The notes under the pieces were generated by a model. The model saw only the letters and a program-made list of their open reading frames with translations. It was not told where the DNA came from and searched no databases. DNA of 56,353 nucleotides from Syntrophaceae bacterium (GTDB lineage: Bacteria > Desulfobacterota > Syntrophia > Syntrophales > Smithellaceae), in contig PLMQ01000064.1 of the NCBI GenBank assembly GCA_003142535.1, positions 1 through 56,353 on the forward strand, read 5' to 3'. Position 1 is the first letter of the stretch; each line of letters starts with the position of its first letter. The position numbers and the translations under genes were made by a program. Below are positions 40-48,526 of the stretch, in pieces.

Positions 40-149
40 GCGGAGCGTATAACCTAATAACCTAACCACCTGAAGGTGGCAAGAGGTCACGAGAGGTCAC
101 AAGTCGGAATTGGTTTCCAACGCTTGTTTTGGGTTCATACCCGTGATTT
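40..149 (-). repeat. Family 1 intergenic repeat, copy H
   Basis: On the minus strand the copy opens with the family's left edge (AATCACGGGTATGAACCC at 132-149), then a segment with CCAATTCCG, and then degenerate versions of the 18-bp unit (GTGACCT-type motifs, one interrupted by a CCACCTgaAGGTGG hairpin). It follows the stop of the flavodoxin-like gene by about 130 bases and has that gene's orientation. The far end runs towards the window edge. Nothing else is recognised in bases 1-40. Confidence 0.7.
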
Positions 150-4231: not shown

Positions 4232-4270
4232 ATTCCGGCTTTCGTAACCTAAAGGTCACAAGACCGGAAT
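4232..4270 (+). repeat. Family 1 repeat fragment (one 18-bp unit in a hairpin)
   Basis: ATTCCGG and CCGGAAT (4232-4238 and 4264-4270) enclose one AACCTAAAGGTCACAAG unit. This is the minimal hairpin module of the family 1 repeats. It lies in the 374-base gene-free stretch 3958-4331, in the nifU leader; no small gene is seen in that stretch. Confidence 0.65.
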
Positions 4271-4331: not shown

Positions 4332-5156
4332 ATGTGGGAATATACGGACAAAGTTAAGGAACACTTTCTCAATCCGCACAATGTCGGGGAAATCGAAAAT
4401 CCGGACGGCGAGGCGGAAGTGGGTTCTCTGGCCTGCGGCGACGCTCTGAAGCTCACCTTTAAGCTAGATGAAAACAAGAAAATTAAAGAGGCTAAATTCA
4501 AAACTTTCGGCTGTGCCAGCGCCATTGCCACCTCTTCAGCATTGACGGATATCATCAAAGGGATGACTCTGGAAGAAGCCCTGAAAGTATCCAATCAGGA
4601 TATCGCTAATTATTTGGGCGGATTGCCGCAGGAAAAAATGCATTGCTCTGTTATGGGTAAACAGGCGCTAGAAAAAGCGATTGAAAATTATAAAGGCGCG
4701 CCATCCACAGAACCCGGAGCAAAAATAATTTGTGAGTGTTTTGGAGTTACCGATAAAGAGATTGAACGGGCTGTCCGGGAAAATAATCTCTCGACAATTG
4801 AGGATGTGACCAACTACACTAAAGCGGGCGGCGGCTGCGGCAGGTGTCATGATGCCATCCAGCAGATTATTGACACTGTAAGAAGTGAGCCCAAATCTTC
4901 GGCACAGCCTCAGCTGACCAATATTCAAAAAATCCGTATGATTGAGGAAACGATCGAGCGCGAAATACGGCCATCTCTGAAGCATGACGGCGGTGATATT
5001 GATCTCATTGATGTTGTCGGTAACCGGGTAATCGTGGCGACAAGAGGCGCCTGTGCTGTCTGCCAGGCATCCGATATTACGCTGAAGCATTTTGTGGAGC
5101 AAAGGCTCAAAGAACTTGTTTCGCCGGACATTACGGTTGAGGAGGCATCCAAATGA
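4332..5156 (+). CDS. nifU: NifU iron-sulfur cluster scaffold, full three-domain form
   Basis: NifU receives sulfur from NifS and builds iron-sulfur clusters. All three domains are visible. The IscU-like N-domain has C35, D37, C61 and C105. The central BFD-like [2Fe-2S] domain has CxC (C134, C136) and CxxC (C169, C172). The C-terminal NifU domain has CAVC (C241, C244). At 274 residues it is the usual length. The start follows AAGGAG. It overlaps nifS by four bases (ATGA). No nitrogenase genes are in view, so a housekeeping assembly role is as likely as a role in nitrogen fixation. Confidence 0.95.
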   Translation: MWEYTDKVKEHFLNPHNVGEIENPDGEAEVGSLACGDALKLTFKLDENKKIKEAKFKTFGCASAIATSSALTDIIKGMTLEEALKVSNQDIANYLGGLPQEKMHCSVMGKQALEKAIENYKGAPSTEPGAKIICECFGVTDKEIERAVRENNLSTIEDVTNYTKAGGGCGRCHDAIQQIIDTVRSEPKSSAQPQLTNIQKIRMIEETIEREIRPSLKHDGGDIDLIDVVGNRVIVATRGACAVCQASDITLKHFVEQRLKELVSPDITVEEASK

Positions 5157-6334: not shown

Positions 6335-6568
6335 CGGGTATAAACACCAAAAGTTTGTTGAAGTGTATTATACCCCTGCTTACACGGGATAATTCGACAA
6401 GCAAACTTCAGCGCACTTCGTTTCTGAAGTTTGGGTCTCATTACCCTCCGCTTTGCGGGATTGCGAAGTCCACCGTAGGTGGATTCAACTAGCCAATTCC
6501 GACTTGTGGCCTTTAGGTTACTTGTGACCTTTAGGTTATGCGCCATGCTTACGGAATTGGAATTTCAC
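6332..6568 (+). repeat. Family 1 intergenic repeat, copy A (nifS-cysE spacer)
   Basis: This near-complete copy fills the spacer. It has the left edge at the nifS stop, the block with TTATACCCC and CCGCTTTGCGGGATT, a hairpin TCCACCgtaGGTGGA, then a 9-bp stem CCAATTCCG (6493-6501) / CGGAATTGG (6552-6560). The stem encloses two 18-bp units on the minus-sense reading ACTTGTGACCTTTAGGTT (6502-6519, 6520-6537; the first has one change). The right edge reads GGAATTTCAC, a mutated form of the usual GGAGTTTCAC, and cysE has its own AAAAGGAG ribosome site just after it. Confidence 0.85.
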
Positions 6569-9263: not shown

Positions 9264-11816
9264 TCACTTTTGTGGAGAGGGGACATTTTTCCGCAGCAGC
9301 TCGGCAAACTGCTCGGGCACAATAGGCTTGCTGAAGTAATAACCCTGCATCTCGTCACAGGAATGGTCCTTTAAGAAGTCCATTTGTTCTACCGTTTCCA
9401 CACCTTCGGCCACGACGGTAAGACTTAGAGTCTTGCCCATGGCAATAATCGCCTCGGTAATCGCTTTGTCTTCAGCATCTAGCGGGATGTTGCGGATGAA
9501 TGATCTGTCCACTTTCAGCGTATCAATGGGGAAGTGCTTAATCTGGGCAAGAGATGAGTAACCGGTGCCGAAATCGTCGATAGCAAGACGTACACCCAAA
9601 TTCTTGATTTTGGTTAACACGGCGATCATGCGTGAGGGGTTATGCATTACCATGCTTTCGGTAATTTCCAACTCCAGCAGGTTTGGCGCCATACCGGAAT
9701 CATCCAGGGCTTTTTTGATATCTTCTATTAGGAATTCATCCATAAGTTGGCGCAAGGACAAATTTACCGCCATGCAGACAGGGGGAAGACCAGCGCGCTG
9801 CCAGGCAACATTTTGCGCACACGCAGTTCTAATTACCCACTTGCCGATGGGTATGATTAGCCCGGATTCTTCGGCTATCGGAATGAATTGCGTGGGTGTT
9901 ACGGTGCCAAGGTAGGGATTCTGCCAACGCAGCAGAGCCTCCACGCCTTTAATCACGTTCGTTTTGAAGTCAACTTGTGCCTGATAATGCAAAGAGAGCT
10001 CATTGCGCTCCAGCGCAAAGCGCAGGTTTGTTTCGATCGATTGACGTTCTAACGATTTTGATTGAATATCTTCGGAGTAGAATTGGTAATTGTTCTTACC
10101 TTCCTCTTTGGCCTGATACATGGCTATATCGGCATTTTTCATCAGGGCTTGCTCTTCTTTTGCATCCTTTGGAAACACGCTGATGCCGATGCTCGCCGTT
10201 ACGCGACATTCTTCATTCATAATATTTACAGGTTTGATGACAACGGAAAGTATTTTGCCGGCCACTGTTTCGACTTGGCTTAAATCGCTAAATTCCTCAA
10301 TCAATATTACAAATTCGTCTCCTCCCAGGCGGGCGACAACATCAACTGCCCGCAACGTTTGCTTCAAGCGCACAGCGATTTCCTGCAGCAGTTGATCGCC
10401 TGCATCGTGGCCCATGGTATCATTGACAATTTTGAAGCGATCCAGATCGATGAAAAAGACGGCAAGCTGCCGCTGATAGCGCTGCGCGCCATGGATGGCG
10501 TGGTTTAACAGTTGGCTGAACATCAAACGGTTGGGTAGTCCGGTCAGGGCGTCGTGTGTGGCCATATGCTGAATCTGCTCTTCGGCGTGTTTGCGCTCAG
10601 TGACATCACAAGTGGTTCCCCGGAACCCAATATTTTTACCTGATGAATCTTTTCGTAATGATACAGATGCTTCAATGGATCTTTTTGTCCCATCTTTTCT
10701 TATAATCTGCCAATCGACTCCTTTGGTGGGTTTCCCTGTTCTGTAGACTTCATTAAAAGTCTGGAAAAGTTTTTTTGCATTCTCTTTATCTGCATATTGC
10801 CGATTATTCATGCCCATTAATTCCTCTTTGGGGTACCCCCATATTTTGCACATGGAATCATTAAAAAAGGTGAGATTGCCGGCAATATCTGCTTCGTAAT
10901 AACCATCTTCGATATCTTCCAATACGGTCCGATATTTTTCTTCGCTTTGGCGCAGGGCTTCCTGAGCGGCTTTTCTCTCCGAAATATCACGGATGGTAGA
11001 CTGCAGATATTTTTTACCTTTGATTTCCAGAAGATTTAAAGTAACGTCCGTATCAACTAACGTTCCATCGAGCCTCTTATGAACCAACTCATAGGGACGC
11101 CTTTCCCGGTGCAGGGCTTCCTTGATTCTTTCCAGACCATATTCGGGTGTCAGCTGACCATTGGGTTGCTTTTCCGGCCAGAATTCCGAGGGAGAGTGTC
11201 CGATGACCTGTTCTTTGGTACCACGGAAAAGCTCCAAGGTGCTTTTATTACAATCGATGATTAAATTACGGTCCATCAGAATAATGGCATCGATAGCGGA
11301 ATCAAAAAGGGCGCGATACTGGATTTCATATTGGTGCAAGGCTTCCTGAGCGGCCTTTCTTTCAGAAACATCGCGAATAATTGATTGCAGGTACTTTTTC
11401 CCTTTGATTTCAAAAATATTTAAAGAGATATCGGTATCAACCAATGTTCCGTCAACGCGTTGATGGGTGAGTTCAAAGGGACGGCGTATCTTTTGGTGTA
11501 TTGTTTCTCTAATTATTGACAAGGTATATTCAGTTGTTAATTGGCCGTTAGGCTGCCTTTCCGGCCAGAATTTAGCAGGTATTTGTCCGACAATTTCTTC
11601 CCTGGAACAGCGGAACAATTCCTCAGTTCTTTTGTTACAGTCAAAGATCAAATTACGATCCATCAAGATTATGGCGTCATTGGCGGAATCAAAAAGGGCG
11701 CGATATTGGATTTCATATTCTTTCTGAAGGCCATCGGCGGTGGAGATCTTTGCTGTTTCTCTTTCCATCTCTTTGATTTTTCCTTCCAGTTCCTGGTAAG
11801 TAGGTTTATCCGGCAT
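9264..11816 (-). CDS. Triple-PAS GGDEF-EAL cyclic-di-GMP signalling protein
   Basis: The order is a short coiled N-terminus, PAS1 (residues ~34-160), PAS2 (~163-290), PAS3 (~291-410), GGDEF (~420-580) and EAL (~595-845). The cyclase motif GGDEF (498-502) is intact, with an inhibitory RxxD site (RAVD, 489-492) five residues before it. The phosphodiesterase motif EALLRW (from 626), DDFGTGYSSL and EGVE are intact, so both activities are possible. No membrane segment is seen, so it should be a cytoplasmic sensor. PAS1 and PAS2 are nearly the same sequence. The ATG has GGGAGG well placed upstream. Confidence 0.95.
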   Translation of the reverse strand: MPDKPTYQELEGKIKEMERETAKISTADGLQKEYEIQYRALFDSANDAIILMDRNLIFDCNKRTEELFRCSREEIVGQIPAKFWPERQPNGQLTTEYTLSIIRETIHQKIRRPFELTHQRVDGTLVDTDISLNIFEIKGKKYLQSIIRDVSERKAAQEALHQYEIQYRALFDSAIDAIILMDRNLIIDCNKSTLELFRGTKEQVIGHSPSEFWPEKQPNGQLTPEYGLERIKEALHRERRPYELVHKRLDGTLVDTDVTLNLLEIKGKKYLQSTIRDISERKAAQEALRQSEEKYRTVLEDIEDGYYEADIAGNLTFFNDSMCKIWGYPKEELMGMNNRQYADKENAKKLFQTFNEVYRTGKPTKGVDWQIIRKDGTKRSIEASVSLRKDSSGKNIGFRGTTCDVTERKHAEEQIQHMATHDALTGLPNRLMFSQLLNHAIHGAQRYQRQLAVFFIDLDRFKIVNDTMGHDAGDQLLQEIAVRLKQTLRAVDVVARLGGDEFVILIEEFSDLSQVETVAGKILSVVIKPVNIMNEECRVTASIGISVFPKDAKEEQALMKNADIAMYQAKEEGKNNYQFYSEDIQSKSLERQSIETNLRFALERNELSLHYQAQVDFKTNVIKGVEALLRWQNPYLGTVTPTQFIPIAEESGLIIPIGKWVIRTACAQNVAWQRAGLPPVCMAVNLSLRQLMDEFLIEDIKKALDDSGMAPNLLELEITESMVMHNPSRMIAVLTKIKNLGVRLAIDDFGTGYSSLAQIKHFPIDTLKVDRSFIRNIPLDAEDKAITEAIIAMGKTLSLTVVAEGVETVEQMDFLKDHSCDEMQGYYFSKPIVPEQFAELLRKNVPSPQK

Positions 11817-12529: not shown

Positions 12530-12697
12530 GTGAAACTCCTATTCCGAAAGAGCAGCGCATCGGAATTAGTAAGTTGTAATGAGACCCAAACTTCAGAAAC
12601 AAAGTGCGCAACCTAAAGGTCACAAGCTGAAGTTTGCTGGTCGAATTATCCCGCAAAGGGGAGGGTATAATACCCATTTGGGGTTCATACCTGTGAT
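12530..12697 (-). repeat. Family 1 intergenic repeat, copy B (ridA-MOSC spacer)
   Basis: On the minus strand the left edge AATCACAGGTATGAACCCC encodes the last residues and the TGA stop of ridA. Next come GGGTATTATACCC, the CGGGATAATTCGACCAGC block, one 18-bp unit (12610-12626 on the plus strand as AACCTAAAGGTCACAAG) and the stem ending CGGAATAGGAGTTTCAC just before the MOSC gene. The copy therefore touches the stop of one gene and the ribosome site of the next. Confidence 0.85.
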
Positions 12698-13081: not shown

Positions 13082-13684
13082 TCATCTCTGTTTGTAATCA
13101 TAATCATGTCTGGTAATAACAAACAGCGCGTTTAGAGCAAACAAATTGGGCAGAAATTTCACCAGATTTGCTTTCCCCAAAAAATATTGCTGCTCAATGT
13201 TTATGCTTTTTTTACGGCAATAGTCAATAAAATCCTGTATCGTTAAAAAACGGATGTTCGGAGTTTCAAACCAGTAGTAGGGGAGAGCTTCATTAATCGG
13301 AGTTTTTCCGCTTATTAACAAAGTTAAACGGGCTTTGATATGGGCAAAATTAGGAAAGCCGACAATTACCCGTTTCCCAACCCGCAGGGATTCCTGAATG
13401 ACAAAATCAGCTTTCTTTATTTCCTGCATGATCTGATTTAAGATAACATAATCGAATGATTGATCGGGATAGTCCACAAGGCCGCTTTCAATATCACCCT
13501 GCAGCACAGTTAAGCCGTTTTCCACACATTTTTGCATTTCTTCATCATTCAATTCGATACCCTGAACCAGAGCATTTTTCTTTTGAGTGAGCAGGGAAAG
13601 CAGCTCGCCGTTACCGCATCCTAAATCCAGGACATGGGCATTTTCGGTGATTATCTGAGTAATTATCTGATGGTCTATTTTCAT
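13082..13684 (-). CDS. metW: MetW-like methyltransferase-fold protein
   Basis: MetW proteins go with MetX in methionine synthesis, usually as a partner that activates homoserine acetyl- or succinyltransfer. Visible are the SAM-binding motif VLDLGCGNGELL, FDYVILNQIMQE, VGFPNFAHIKARL and PYYWFETPNIRFLTIQDF, which are typical of MetW. The start at 13684 has GGAG eight bases upstream; that GGAG is the right edge of family 1 repeat copy C. The longer frame to 13717 only reads through the repeat. 200 residues, the usual size. It lies directly after metX on the same strand. Confidence 0.93.
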   Translation of the reverse strand: MKIDHQIITQIITENAHVLDLGCGNGELLSLLTQKKNALVQGIELNDEEMQKCVENGLTVLQGDIESGLVDYPDQSFDYVILNQIMQEIKKADFVIQESLRVGKRVIVGFPNFAHIKARLTLLISGKTPINEALPYYWFETPNIRFLTIQDFIDYCRKKSINIEQQYFLGKANLVKFLPNLFALNALFVITRHDYDYKQR

Positions 13685-13686
13685 TC

Positions 13687-13914
13687 GTGAAACTCCAATT
13701 CCGAAAGCGCAGCGCATAACCTAAAGGTCACAAGTAACCTAAAGGTCACAAGTAACCTAAAGGTCACAAGTAACCTAAAGGTCACAAGTCGGAATTGTTA
13801 AGTTGAATCCGCCTGCGGCGGACTTCGCAATCCCGCGAAGCGGAGGGTATGATACCTAGCAGCGCGCTTGCGACATGTTTCCAAAGCTTGCTTTGGGGTT
13901 TATACCCGTGATTA
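13687..13914 (-). repeat. Family 1 intergenic repeat, copy C (metX-metW spacer), the fullest copy
   Basis: On the minus strand: left edge AATCACGGGTATAAACCCC, hairpin CCAAAGcaagCTTTGG, the ATACCCTCCGCTTCGCGGGATT block, hairpin TCCGCCgcaGGCGGA, stem CAATTCCG, four 18-bp units, stem CGGAATTG, and right edge GGAGTTTCAC. The last GGAG sits eight bases before the metW ATG. The orientation follows metX-metW transcription. Confidence 0.9.
13718..13789. repeat. Four perfect tandem 18-bp units inside copy C
   Basis: AACCTAAAGGTCACAAGT is repeated four times without a change (13718-13735, 13736-13753, 13754-13771, 13772-13789). Each unit contains the small inverted repeat ACCTaaAGGT. Other family 1 copies have one or two units, so the number varies between copies. 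Confidence 0.98.
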
Positions 13915-13948: not shown

Positions 13949-15070
13949 TCAATCGAGGCTTACATTAGCCAGGAAATTTCTAATCAGCCGTGTTTCATCT
14001 TCAATCTCAATCAGAAATGCATCATGCCCGTAAGTTGAATTTAAATCAAAATAAGTAGTGTAAGCGTGCTTTCTCTTCAAAAGACGGACAATATCCTGAG
14101 ATTGATGTGTCGGATATAGCCAGTCCGACTTGAAGGAAATTACCAGAAACCGGATATTTGTCTTTCTAATGCCGGGCATGAATTTATCGCCGGAAAGATC
14201 GAAATAATCCATTGCCTTGGTAATATAAAGATAAGAGTTGGCGTCGAATCGTTTGACAAAATTATAGCCACGATAACGTAAATAACCTTCCACTTCAAAA
14301 TCGTCAATGAACTGGAAACTTAAATTATCATTTTTCAATTTGCGGGAAAATTTCTCCTCCATGGATTGATCGCTCATAAACGTGATATGCCCGATCATCC
14401 GCGCAACAGCCAGTCCTTTTTCCGGTTGGCCGTGTTCATAATAGCTGCCGCCGAGCCACGCCGGATCAGCCATAATTGATTGTCTAATGACTTCATCGAA
14501 AGCGATTTGCTGCGGTGAATGTTTCAAGGCTGTGGCAATGGGAATTGCCGCAACTAATTTATCAGGATATTTAGAAGCCCATTGTAAAACATGCATTCCG
14601 CCCATTGAACCGCCGATTACGCAGAACAGTTTCTCGATGCCGAAGAAATCAATCAAATGTTTCTGGGCGTCCACCATGTCTTCAATGGTAATGACGGGAA
14701 AATCTAGGGCATAAGGTTTGCCCGTTTCGGGATTGATGGAAGAAGGTCCGGTACTGCCCATACATCCGCCGATGACGTTGGAACAAATAATAAAATAAAG
14801 ATTTGTGTCCAGCGCCTTACCGGGGCCGATCATATCATCCCACCATCCTGCGGCTTTGTCTCCCTCATGAAAACCGGCAGCGTGGGCGTCTCCGGAGAGG
14901 GCATGACAAACAAGTATCGCATTGGACTTCGCGTTATTTAAAGTCCCATACGTTTCATAAGTCAGCGTTACCGGTGCCAGATGGCGTCCGGATTGCAGTT
15001 GTAAGGCTGCTGGTGGTTCAGCAAATGAAAAATATTGTGTTTTGACAATGCCGATGGATTTATCGCTCAT
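13949..15070 (-). CDS. metX: Homoserine O-acetyltransferase (MetX family)
   Basis: It acylates homoserine in methionine synthesis. This is an alpha/beta-hydrolase of 373 residues with the nucleophile in VIGGSMGGMH (S155), the oxyanion segment CHALSGDAHA, an aspartate in SDWLYPT and the histidine in YGHDAFL near the C-terminus. SNVIGGCMGSTGP is the MetX signature. The start MSDKSIG at 15070 fits the family better than an ATG 39 bases upstream. It is followed by metW, the usual pairing. Acetyl versus succinyl specificity cannot be read with certainty. Confidence 0.93.
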   Translation of the reverse strand: MSDKSIGIVKTQYFSFAEPPAALQLQSGRHLAPVTLTYETYGTLNNAKSNAILVCHALSGDAHAAGFHEGDKAAGWWDDMIGPGKALDTNLYFIICSNVIGGCMGSTGPSSINPETGKPYALDFPVITIEDMVDAQKHLIDFFGIEKLFCVIGGSMGGMHVLQWASKYPDKLVAAIPIATALKHSPQQIAFDEVIRQSIMADPAWLGGSYYEHGQPEKGLAVARMIGHITFMSDQSMEEKFSRKLKNDNLSFQFIDDFEVEGYLRYRGYNFVKRFDANSYLYITKAMDYFDLSGDKFMPGIRKTNIRFLVISFKSDWLYPTHQSQDIVRLLKRKHAYTTYFDLNSTYGHDAFLIEIEDETRLIRNFLANVSLD

Positions 15071-15091
15071 AATTATTTCTTTCCGGGTTTC

Positions 15092-15121
15092 TAGAACAAG
15101 GGGTTGCAACCCCTTGTTCTA
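15092..15121. repeat. 30-bp perfect palindrome between nadA and metX
   Basis: TAGAACAAGGGGTTG and its exact reverse complement meet at 15106/15107 with no loop. It fills most of the 58-base gap between the nadA stop and the metX start. Neither side has a run of T, so a standard terminator is unlikely. It could be an operator, an RNA processing hairpin or a repeat of another family. Confidence 0.9.
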
Positions 15122-16674: not shown

Positions 16675-16962
16675 ATGTTAAAACATCTCGTCTTGCTGAA
16701 ATTTAAGGAGTCGGTTACCGATGAACAAAAAGATGACTTGGAGAAATCGCTGTTGGCCTTGCCGAAAGTGATAAAAGAAATAAAAGGTTATGAATGTGGC
16801 AGTGATTTACGCCCTATTAAGACATTTGATTTTGCACTCGTTTCTACATTTGATGATTTCGCAGCAATGAAAATTTATCAGGTTCATCCTGATCATGTAA
16901 ATGTCTTGACTAAAGTCAGAAATTTAAGCGTCCGGATTGAAGCCGTTGATTTTGAGTTCTAA
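16675..16962 (+). CDS. Dabb-domain (stress-responsive A/B barrel) protein
   Basis: A 95-residue ferredoxin-like fold protein beginning MLKHLVLLKFKESVTDEQ. It has the conserved LKHLVLLKF strand, a central GYECGSDL turn, FALVSTFDD and the YQVHPDHV histidine motif of the Dabb family. These form dimers, and their function in bacteria is mostly unknown. ATG at 16675 has GGAGGG five bases upstream. It is divergent from the Rrf2-family gene. Its stop codon TAA runs into the first bases of a family 2 repeat. Confidence 0.85.
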   Translation: MLKHLVLLKFKESVTDEQKDDLEKSLLALPKVIKEIKGYECGSDLRPIKTFDFALVSTFDDFAAMKIYQVHPDHVNVLTKVRNLSVRIEAVDFEF

Positions 16963-17059
16963 TACCATTTCGCGCTCGAAGGCTAACTTTGTTGGCAGAA
17001 CCTGCCTGGGGCAGGGAACCCCGTCGCATGCTCGGGCGTGCCGGGTCGTCGGCTTCCTG
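16962..17059 (+). repeat. Family 2 (MITE-like) repeat, decayed copy
   Basis: It begins ATACCATTTCGC, the terminal repeat of this family, and then has the conserved core GGCTAACTTTGTTGGC (16981-16996) and GTCGTCGGCTTCCT (17046-17059). About 49 bases containing a CCTGCCtggGGCAGG hairpin separate the two core parts, which are adjacent in the other copies. No right terminal repeat is found, so this copy is broken. Confidence 0.7.
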
Positions 17060-28914: not shown

Positions 28915-29036
28915 TACCATTCCGCTTTCTTCGGCTAACTTTGTTGGCTGCGTCGTCGGCGTCCTCAACGTATTATTAAATACGCCTGCGGTGCCTCCTC
29001 CTTGCCGCCTCGTTATCCTTTGAAAGTGAAATGGTA
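28915..29036 (-). repeat. Family 2 MITE-like repeat, complete copy
   Basis: The ends TACCATTCCGCTTTC and (reverse complement of the right end) TACCATTTCACTTTC match at 13 of 15 positions. Length is 122 bases. The core GGCTAACTTTGTTGGCTGC and GTCGTCGGCGTCCTCAACG matches, in reverse, the copy at 48405-48526. A central CGTATTattaAATACG hairpin makes the whole element an imperfect foldback. The rest of the gene-free stretch 28851-29251 shows only the terminator near 29210. Confidence 0.85.
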
Positions 29037-35604: not shown

Positions 35605-35818
35605 ACTCCAAATCAAACTTTGAAAACCGATTCCACGGCAAGTTGCAGGGTATTATATCCATGTTTATACGGGATAATCCGGCGAACAAACTTCAATTCG
35701 CTTCGCCCGACATGTGCCGGACTTCGCTTTCGGAATTGGAGTTTCACTACCGCCGCTTATGCGGGATAGTTCAACTTGCCAATTCCGCTACGCTTTGCTT
35801 TCGGAATTGGAGTTTCAC
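35594..35818 (+). repeat. Family 1 repeat, copy D with two right edges (panD-metK spacer)
   Basis: The left edge TTACAGGTATAAACTCC supplies the panD stop. Middle blocks follow (GGGTATTATATCC, CGGGATAATCCGGCGAACAA). GCTTTCGGAATTGGAGTTTCAC occurs twice, near 35729-35756 and at the end (35797-35818), so this copy looks like a fusion or partial duplication. The 18-bp unit is absent. It lies about 205 bases before metK. The gene-free stretch is 35605-36024. Confidence 0.8.
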
Positions 35819-35943
35819 TAATAAATCAATAATATTGATGTGTAAATATAAAGAAATATATTAATAAAATTCAAAATAAAGTCTCTATTGTTCAATCAAG
35901 TTTATTTAATTAACATAAAACCTATTATCTATGAAAAAAGGAT

Positions 35944-38694: not shown

Positions 38695-38842
38695 AATTCC
38701 GAAAGCAAAGCGTATAACCTGAAGGTCACAGGTCGGAATTGGTAAGTTGAACAATCCCGCGAAGCGGAGGGTATATAATACCCCGCAGCAAGCTTTGGAA
38801 TCGGTTTCCAATGCTTGCTACGCTAGGGGGTTCCCGTGATTA
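38695..38842 (-). repeat. Family 1 repeat, copy E (between lptG and ahcY)
   Basis: On the minus strand: AATCACGGG edge 11 bases after the lptG stop, a GCAAGCATTGG...CCAAAGCTTGC hairpin region, CCGCTTCGCGGGATTG, stem CCAATTCCG, one diverged 18-bp unit (ACCTGTGACCTTCAGGTT), stem CGGAATTGG and GGAGTTTCAC. The orientation follows lptG, but the right edge faces the 3' end of the convergent ahcY and serves no start codon. Confidence 0.85.
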
Positions 38843-48404: not shown

Positions 48405-48526
48405 ATACCTAGTTGCATTCAAAGGATAACGCGACGGCAAGAAGGAGGCGACGAGGCGTATTTTACATACGTTGAGGAAGCCGACGACGAAGCCAACAAA
48501 GTTAGCCAAAGAATGCGGCTTGGTAT
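48405..48526 (+). repeat. Family 2 MITE-like repeat at the arnC-arnA junction
   Basis: The ends ATACCTAGTTGCATTC and (right end reversed) ATACCAAGCCGCATTC match at 13 of 16 positions. Length is 122 bases, the same as the 28915 copy, to which it is inverted. Its final AT forms the first two bases of the ATG of the arnA formyltransferase. The reading frame is open through the whole element, and a GGGAG with TTG (48402) lies just upstream. Confidence 0.85.

Follow-up and report, generated by a model that had tools for sequence, protein, structure and literature searches.

The window analysed here is a stretch of 56,353 nucleotides from a Syntrophaceae bacterium (assembly GCA_003142535.1, contig PLMQ01000064.1), in which the minus-strand genes metX and metW are separated by a gap holding a composite repeat of several hairpins (Table 1). 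The metW product was matched by the Pfam MetW model (E = 6.8e-64), and translation of metW likely starts at position 13684, with the GGAG of the composite as its ribosome-binding site. The longest metW reading frame, 13082-13717 on the minus strand, begins within the repeat hairpin. This hairpin has arms of 9 bp and contains a tandem array that is free of NN assembly gaps. A sequence search located four perfect tandem copies of AACCTAAAGGTCACAAGT at 13718-13789, as the first-pass annotation of this DNA had reported, and TRF called the array at 13717-13789 with 100% matches and 4.1 copies. Alignment of insertions set the register of the unit to TAACCTAAAGGTCACAAG, which gives the array the bounds listed in the table.

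Table 1. Features of the composite repeat between metX and metW and other unit-bearing or empty sites in the window
Feature	Position	Strand	Basis or remark
Three-level nest of units, TAACCTAA [ TAACCTAA [ CCACCTGAAGGTGGCAAG ] AGGTCACGAG ] AGGTCACAAG	about 50-103	+	recursive nest parsing
Single unit in an unrelated hairpin upstream of nifU, TTCCGGCTTTCG[unit]ACCGGAATGAC	4245-4262	+	
Two tandem units in a metW-type host hairpin	6503-6538	-	one unit with a mismatch
Single unit (CAACCT...) in a different hairpin, CAAACTTCAG...CTGAAGTTTG	12609-12626	+	
Whole composite repeat, several hairpins, GTGAAACTCC...ATACCCGTGATT	13687-13913	+	between metX and metW; ends approximate, ~227 nt
Host hairpin 5' arm, CAATTCCGA	13696-13704	+	sequence, loop-ladder analysis
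Host loop, AAGCGCAGCGCA, with units at its 3' end	13705-13716	+	sequence
Four identical 18-nt units, TAACCTAAAGGTCACAAG (insertion register)	13717-13788	+	sequence, unit and nest parsing
Host hairpin 3' arm, TCGGAATTG, flush with the last unit	13789-13797	+	sequence
metX	13949-15109	-	
metW-type host hairpins without unit (empty sites)	35722-35825	-	
Single unit TAACCTGAAGGTCACAGG in a metW-type host hairpin	38715-38732	+	

Nine units with at most three mismatches were found in the window, against 0.03 expected from shuffled sequence. They had been assigned to a single repeat-hairpin family, and for the copy at 6503 both the family and the number of units (two) agree with that assignment, although one of the two units carries a mismatch. 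The units at 12609 and in the nifU leader at 4245, however, lie in two other, unrelated hairpins, and this was the first sign that mobility belongs to the unit and not to the host hairpin. The nest near the beginning of the window was missing from the first-pass annotation.

The unit is an 18-nt mini-hairpin comprising a 6-bp stem, a 2-nt loop and a 4-nt tail. On the strand opposite to the one described earlier, it consists of a 4-nt tag of the form C-N-N-G (mostly CTTG, CGCG, CCTG or CGTG) and the stem TGACCT/AGGTTA, or compensated variants of it, around a TT or TC loop. The tails CAAG, CGCG, CAGG, CGAG, CGGG and CACG seen on the plus strand correspond to the tags CTTG, CGCG, CCTG, CTCG, CCCG and CGTG, respectively. 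An A-C mismatch on the plus strand of the commonest stem class, TAACCT/AGGTCA, becomes a G-U pair on the other strand, and in folding predictions the tag strand was the more stable (-2.9 against -1.1 kcal/mol); for these two reasons the unit was read as tag-stem-loop-stem on the tag strand.

Exact matches to TAACCTRAAGGTCACRMG numbered 130 in the 2.93-Mb genome (70 contigs), and the reversed pattern gave none. Unit arrays, nests and the unit grammar were scored in 1.22 Mb (42%) of the genome, read in stretches. A generic grammar, NNN-CCT-NA-AGG-NNN-YRNG with pairing rules, returned 130 intact units in this portion compared with one in the reversed control. The compensated stem classes were TAACCT/AGGTCA (82), CCACCT/AGGTGG (15), TACCCT/AGGGCA (15), CCACCT/AGGTGA (6), TAACCT/AGGTTA (5) and TCACCT/AGGTGA (3). 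At up to three mismatches, 132 unit arrays were found, comprising 119 single, 8 double, 3 triple and 2 quadruple arrays; NN assembly gaps lie inside some repeats, so unit numbers at sites other than metW may be off. Sites were intergenic in 102 of 105 cases, without preference in orientation relative to genes (32 versus 27) and with a weak bias towards the G-rich strand (61 versus 33 sites, p = 0.005).

Units were also found within units. Wherever one unit interrupted another, it did so after base 8, between the loop and the 3' arm; this held for all 31 cases in the window's genome and all 8 in relatives. No nested insertion fell at any of the remaining 16 internal positions. The 39 cases at one position of 17 may not all be independent, as whole complexes may have been copied with their host by recombination. 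Recursive removal of nested units resolved 171 units into 116 outermost sites, with nesting to depth 1 (85 sites), 2 (23), 3 (6) and 4 (2).

A fixed entry point was likewise seen in the host hairpins. The two common host types have an empty loop of 14 nt (36 and 24 cases), and filled loops measure 32, 50, 68, 86 and 104 nt, that is, 14+18k; 38 of the 54 longer loops fall on this ladder, where 1/18 is expected. The unit immediately precedes the host's 3' arm when read on the TAACCT strand; read on the tag strand, it immediately follows the 5' arm. Relatives carry the unit in other host hairpins, such as GGGAACGGTCGCGA[unit]ACCGTTCCC, CATTCCCGCGAA[unit]TGCGGGAAT and GATTGTGCGGGGA[unit]ACAATC, and empty versions of some of these exist. 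Among 110 sites in relatives, a perfect stem of at least 6 bp with its 3' arm flush at the insert was present at 28, where swapped flanks give an expectation of 1.9, while a perfect 6-bp stem was missing at 75; the mirror arrangement, with the stem flush on the 5' side of the insert, occurred at none of the 110. A fold test recovered the stem-loop placement at 43% of sites in the window's genome and 31% of those in relatives; for displaced positions the figure was 8-9% (8.7%). Not every site follows the rule: the frequent host CGTA^TTAGTAATACG holds the unit near the end of the 5' arm instead of before the 3' arm, and Desulfobacula units that are followed by TAA lie outside obvious hairpins, some of them within genes.

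The metX-metW gap was short in 29 syntenic relatives and contained neither unit nor composite, which indicates that the whole ~227-nt element arrived in the lineage of the window. Tandem neighbours were identical in 8 of 14 pairs, compared with 0.18 for random pairs of units (p = 0.001). The recent local expansion suggested by the first-pass annotation is thus supported, and repeat insertion and slippage are both compatible with it. The number of units was confirmed to vary, from one to four in tandem among sites. A pair of orthologous histidine kinase genes from two MAGs of the Desulfobacula lineage (L067 and L294) share 71% identity and have unit numbers exactly one apart: the unit, carried in frame as NLKVTR, is present once in one gene and twice in the other. 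Unit number therefore changes between species.

Of 51 genomes from the window's family (Smithellaceae-like, Syntrophales), 43 contained the unit pattern; the carriers by name include Smithella and Syntrophaceae MAGs. The pattern was also present in 3 of 104 other genomes of the class sample. No genome outside the family carried it in a phylum sample of 395. Among the matches listed in a scan of named genomes were Desulfobacula and other Desulfobacterales, Methylococcaceae and one Syntrophomonadaceae MAG, with at least 54 copies in the top genome; the scan demanded the pattern, so this list of carriers is incomplete and favours close matches. The unit occurs in other phyla without the composite repeat. 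In Desulfobacula, TAA comes after most units, and some units are read in frame in genes as NLKVTR. Seven viral contigs (L050-L056) carry the unit, mostly with TAA after it, as in Desulfobacula. Named phages and plasmids gave no match to a three-unit query. In a Methyloglobulus genome (L285), TGCCCTTTAGGGTACAAG follows a normal unit and represents the hairpin flipped with the CAAG tail kept.

The description of a variable unit confined to one hairpin family is therefore too narrow: the mini-hairpin is dispersed, nests in itself, and occurs in hairpins unrelated to one another and in other phyla. Its dispersal, compensatory stem changes, fixed entry point and nesting can be read directly from the sequence. 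We consider that the 18-nt unit is probably a REP-like mobile mini-hairpin that enters other hairpins, and itself, at the stem-loop junction. Spread could also have been passive: the units would then be long-standing components of the composite, whole copies of which multiplied by recombination or gene conversion, and replication slippage alone would have altered the number of units. The excess of identical tandem neighbours and the many units held in copies of two composite host types agree with such a history, as do the NN assembly gaps within repeats, which mark the composites as repetitive. It is nevertheless unlikely: the unit sits in many unrelated hairpins, other genera included, and in other phyla where the composite is lacking; the nested units all occupy one internal position; and slippage is unable to nest one type of unit in a different one.

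If the unit is a mobile mini-hairpin, new copies would be expected to enter host hairpins extruded in single-stranded DNA, where a structure-specific single-strand DNA enzyme would nick the stem-loop boundary. Each inserted unit would supply a new loop in which later units could nest, and further units placed beside an inserted one would produce tandem arrays such as the four at metW; these arrays may grow through repeat insertion or replication slippage. More tentatively, the unit may represent a minimal class of mobile DNA, an 18-nt hairpin that recognises the shape of a stem-loop junction and not a target sequence, and that has spread across phyla by means of an enzyme other than Y1, IS110 or RVT_1.

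Candidate enzymes were judged by co-occurrence, by which a lost enzyme or one of another family would escape. No RVT_1 reverse transcriptase was matched in the window's genome, the unit-richest, and IS110 transposases (PF02371) had no match in unit-rich genomes such as G071 and G007; unit number does not track them. With the enzyme named, the same explanation would assign movement of the unit to a Y1 (HUH) tyrosine transposase of the REP-associated type, by analogy with the role proposed for TnpA-REP in moving REPs. The short tag 5' of a small TY-loop hairpin does resemble REPs (PMC3733652), the weak strand bias points the same way, and the window's genome has two Y1 genes, one of which ends some 40 bp away from a two-unit composite. 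However, the tag is neither GTAG nor CGTC; the second Y1 gene (4332-4658 in stretch L164, contig C1) has around it several copies of a REP-like repeat of another kind, AGAACAAGGGGTTGCAACCCCTTGTTCT; and across the 51 genomes of the family, unit number showed no correlation with Y1 transposases (Spearman 0.21, p = 0.13), and some of the unit-rich genomes had no Y1 match (genome G012, for example, has 35 units). Movement of the unit by a Y1 enzyme is accordingly given only a small chance.

At metW itself, the array appears to be a passenger in the composite repeat, with a longer metW-leader hairpin as its predicted effect. The suggestion that units lengthen an RNA hairpin in steps is borne out in folding predictions, in which the leader hairpin goes from -17.0 kcal/mol with no unit to -52.4 with four. 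The predicted exposure of the metW ribosome-binding site (GGAG and AUG) was the same with 0 to 5 units, so that the simple folding model predicts no effect on translation initiation. The position of the array in the metW leader and the hairpin stability that each unit is predicted to add would suit units selected as binding sites or as RNA control elements of the adjoining genes. Such a role is very unlikely given this constant exposure, the lack of conservation at metX-metW in the 29 relatives, the unbiased orientation relative to genes and the absence of Rfam matches in the window at the curated gathering score. The proposal that a protein binds the ACCTaaAGGT palindrome likewise found no support. 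Another reading is templated addition in the manner of a telomerase: once a 3' end had been freed at the stem-loop junction, a polymerase or reverse transcriptase would extend it by copying a template of 18 nt, and so make tandem units. This would account for the fixed length of the unit, for the perfection of the tandem copies and for the position of the unit on the tag strand, immediately behind the 5' arm, where nicking would expose a 3' end. It is highly improbable, as the unit-richest genome has no RVT_1 match and the coexisting unit types with compensated stems would require several templates.

Among known systems, REPs are the closest, and the unit is regarded as belonging to the same broad kind. 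It shares with them a short hairpin with a 4-nt tag on the 5' side, a TY loop, high copy number, intergenic location and compensated stem variants, and some REP families have been reported inside palindromes (PMC3733652). It differs in length (18 nt, against 20-40 for REPs), in its C-N-N-G tag, in a copy number that does not track Y1, and in having a fixed point of entry, the stem-loop junction, which it uses in itself and in many unrelated hairpins. When compared with the features that define REPs, the unit forms a hairpin from a palindrome and is both abundant and extragenic (130 exact copies; 102 of 105 sites intergenic), but has no GTAG or CGTC tag. It was not filed as a REP because this defining tag is lacking and the link to Y1 is inconclusive.

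Other elements resemble the unit in single respects. Yeast mitochondrial GC clusters and organelle double-hairpin elements are also small mobile hairpins, which merge into larger ones, and one of them is likewise of 18 nt (PMC4478555); they are organellar and GC-rich, have AG or ACT direct repeats, and are not known to nest in themselves at a fixed offset. VNTR and microsatellite arrays share perfect tandem units of varying number, whereas the present units mostly stand alone at scattered sites, and many are nested. The palindromic elements of Rickettsia, Wolbachia and Methanocaldococcus lie in frame in genes and are far longer than 18 nt; the Desulfobacula unit resembles them in being carried in frame (NLKVTR) in one or two copies, but in the window's genome the unit is almost wholly intergenic. 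The composite around the array, a mosaic of intergenic hairpins, recalls MITEs and bacterial interspersed mosaic elements, but apart from its stem the 18-nt unit lacks terminal inverted repeats, and a constant target duplication is likewise lacking.

Several identities were rejected. Insert boundaries in Smithellaceae-like hosts are ambiguous by at most 1 nt, without a constant target-site duplication, which argues against a MITE. CRISPR was dismissed because the units abut, nest or stand alone, with no unique spacers of similar length. The unit resembles the anticodon-to-T-arm segment of a tRNA; ARAGORN, however, predicted no tRNA over the unit at 37 loci, and the nearest tRNA-like segment has three mismatches. 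PARCELs are 75-nt coding repeats (PMC2996958), unlike the unit. A search of open-access text for the unit sequence or NLKVTR returned nothing relevant, and text searches over a collection of open-access papers found no description of such an element.

The unit bears on how REP-like palindromes multiply. Entry is confined to a single base position in the unit, the number and nesting order of units form a record of each insertion, and at 18 nt the whole unit fits into one oligonucleotide for testing. If insertion is indeed directed by shape, it would offer a route for the stepwise growth of structured intergenic DNA and RNA in bacteria, and could account for the nested-hairpin mosaics that genome annotations usually pass over.

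Other repeats were observed in the course of the analysis. A small hairpin of about 21 nt, CCCGGC-nn-ATGCYGGG with CGAAG, occurs in the loops of type-1 hosts (for example L165:10615) and itself carries units. A second long interspersed repeat (GCTAACTTTGTTGGC...CGTCGTCGGC...ACGTAT) is present in the window at 28915-28973, 48467-48525 and 16955-16996; elsewhere in the genome the GCTAACTTTGTTGGC repeat carries the unit at CGTA^T, close to the 5' arm. Long direct repeats at 10918-11719 of the window lie in the gene for a PAS-GGDEF-EAL protein and are probably its repeated PAS domains.
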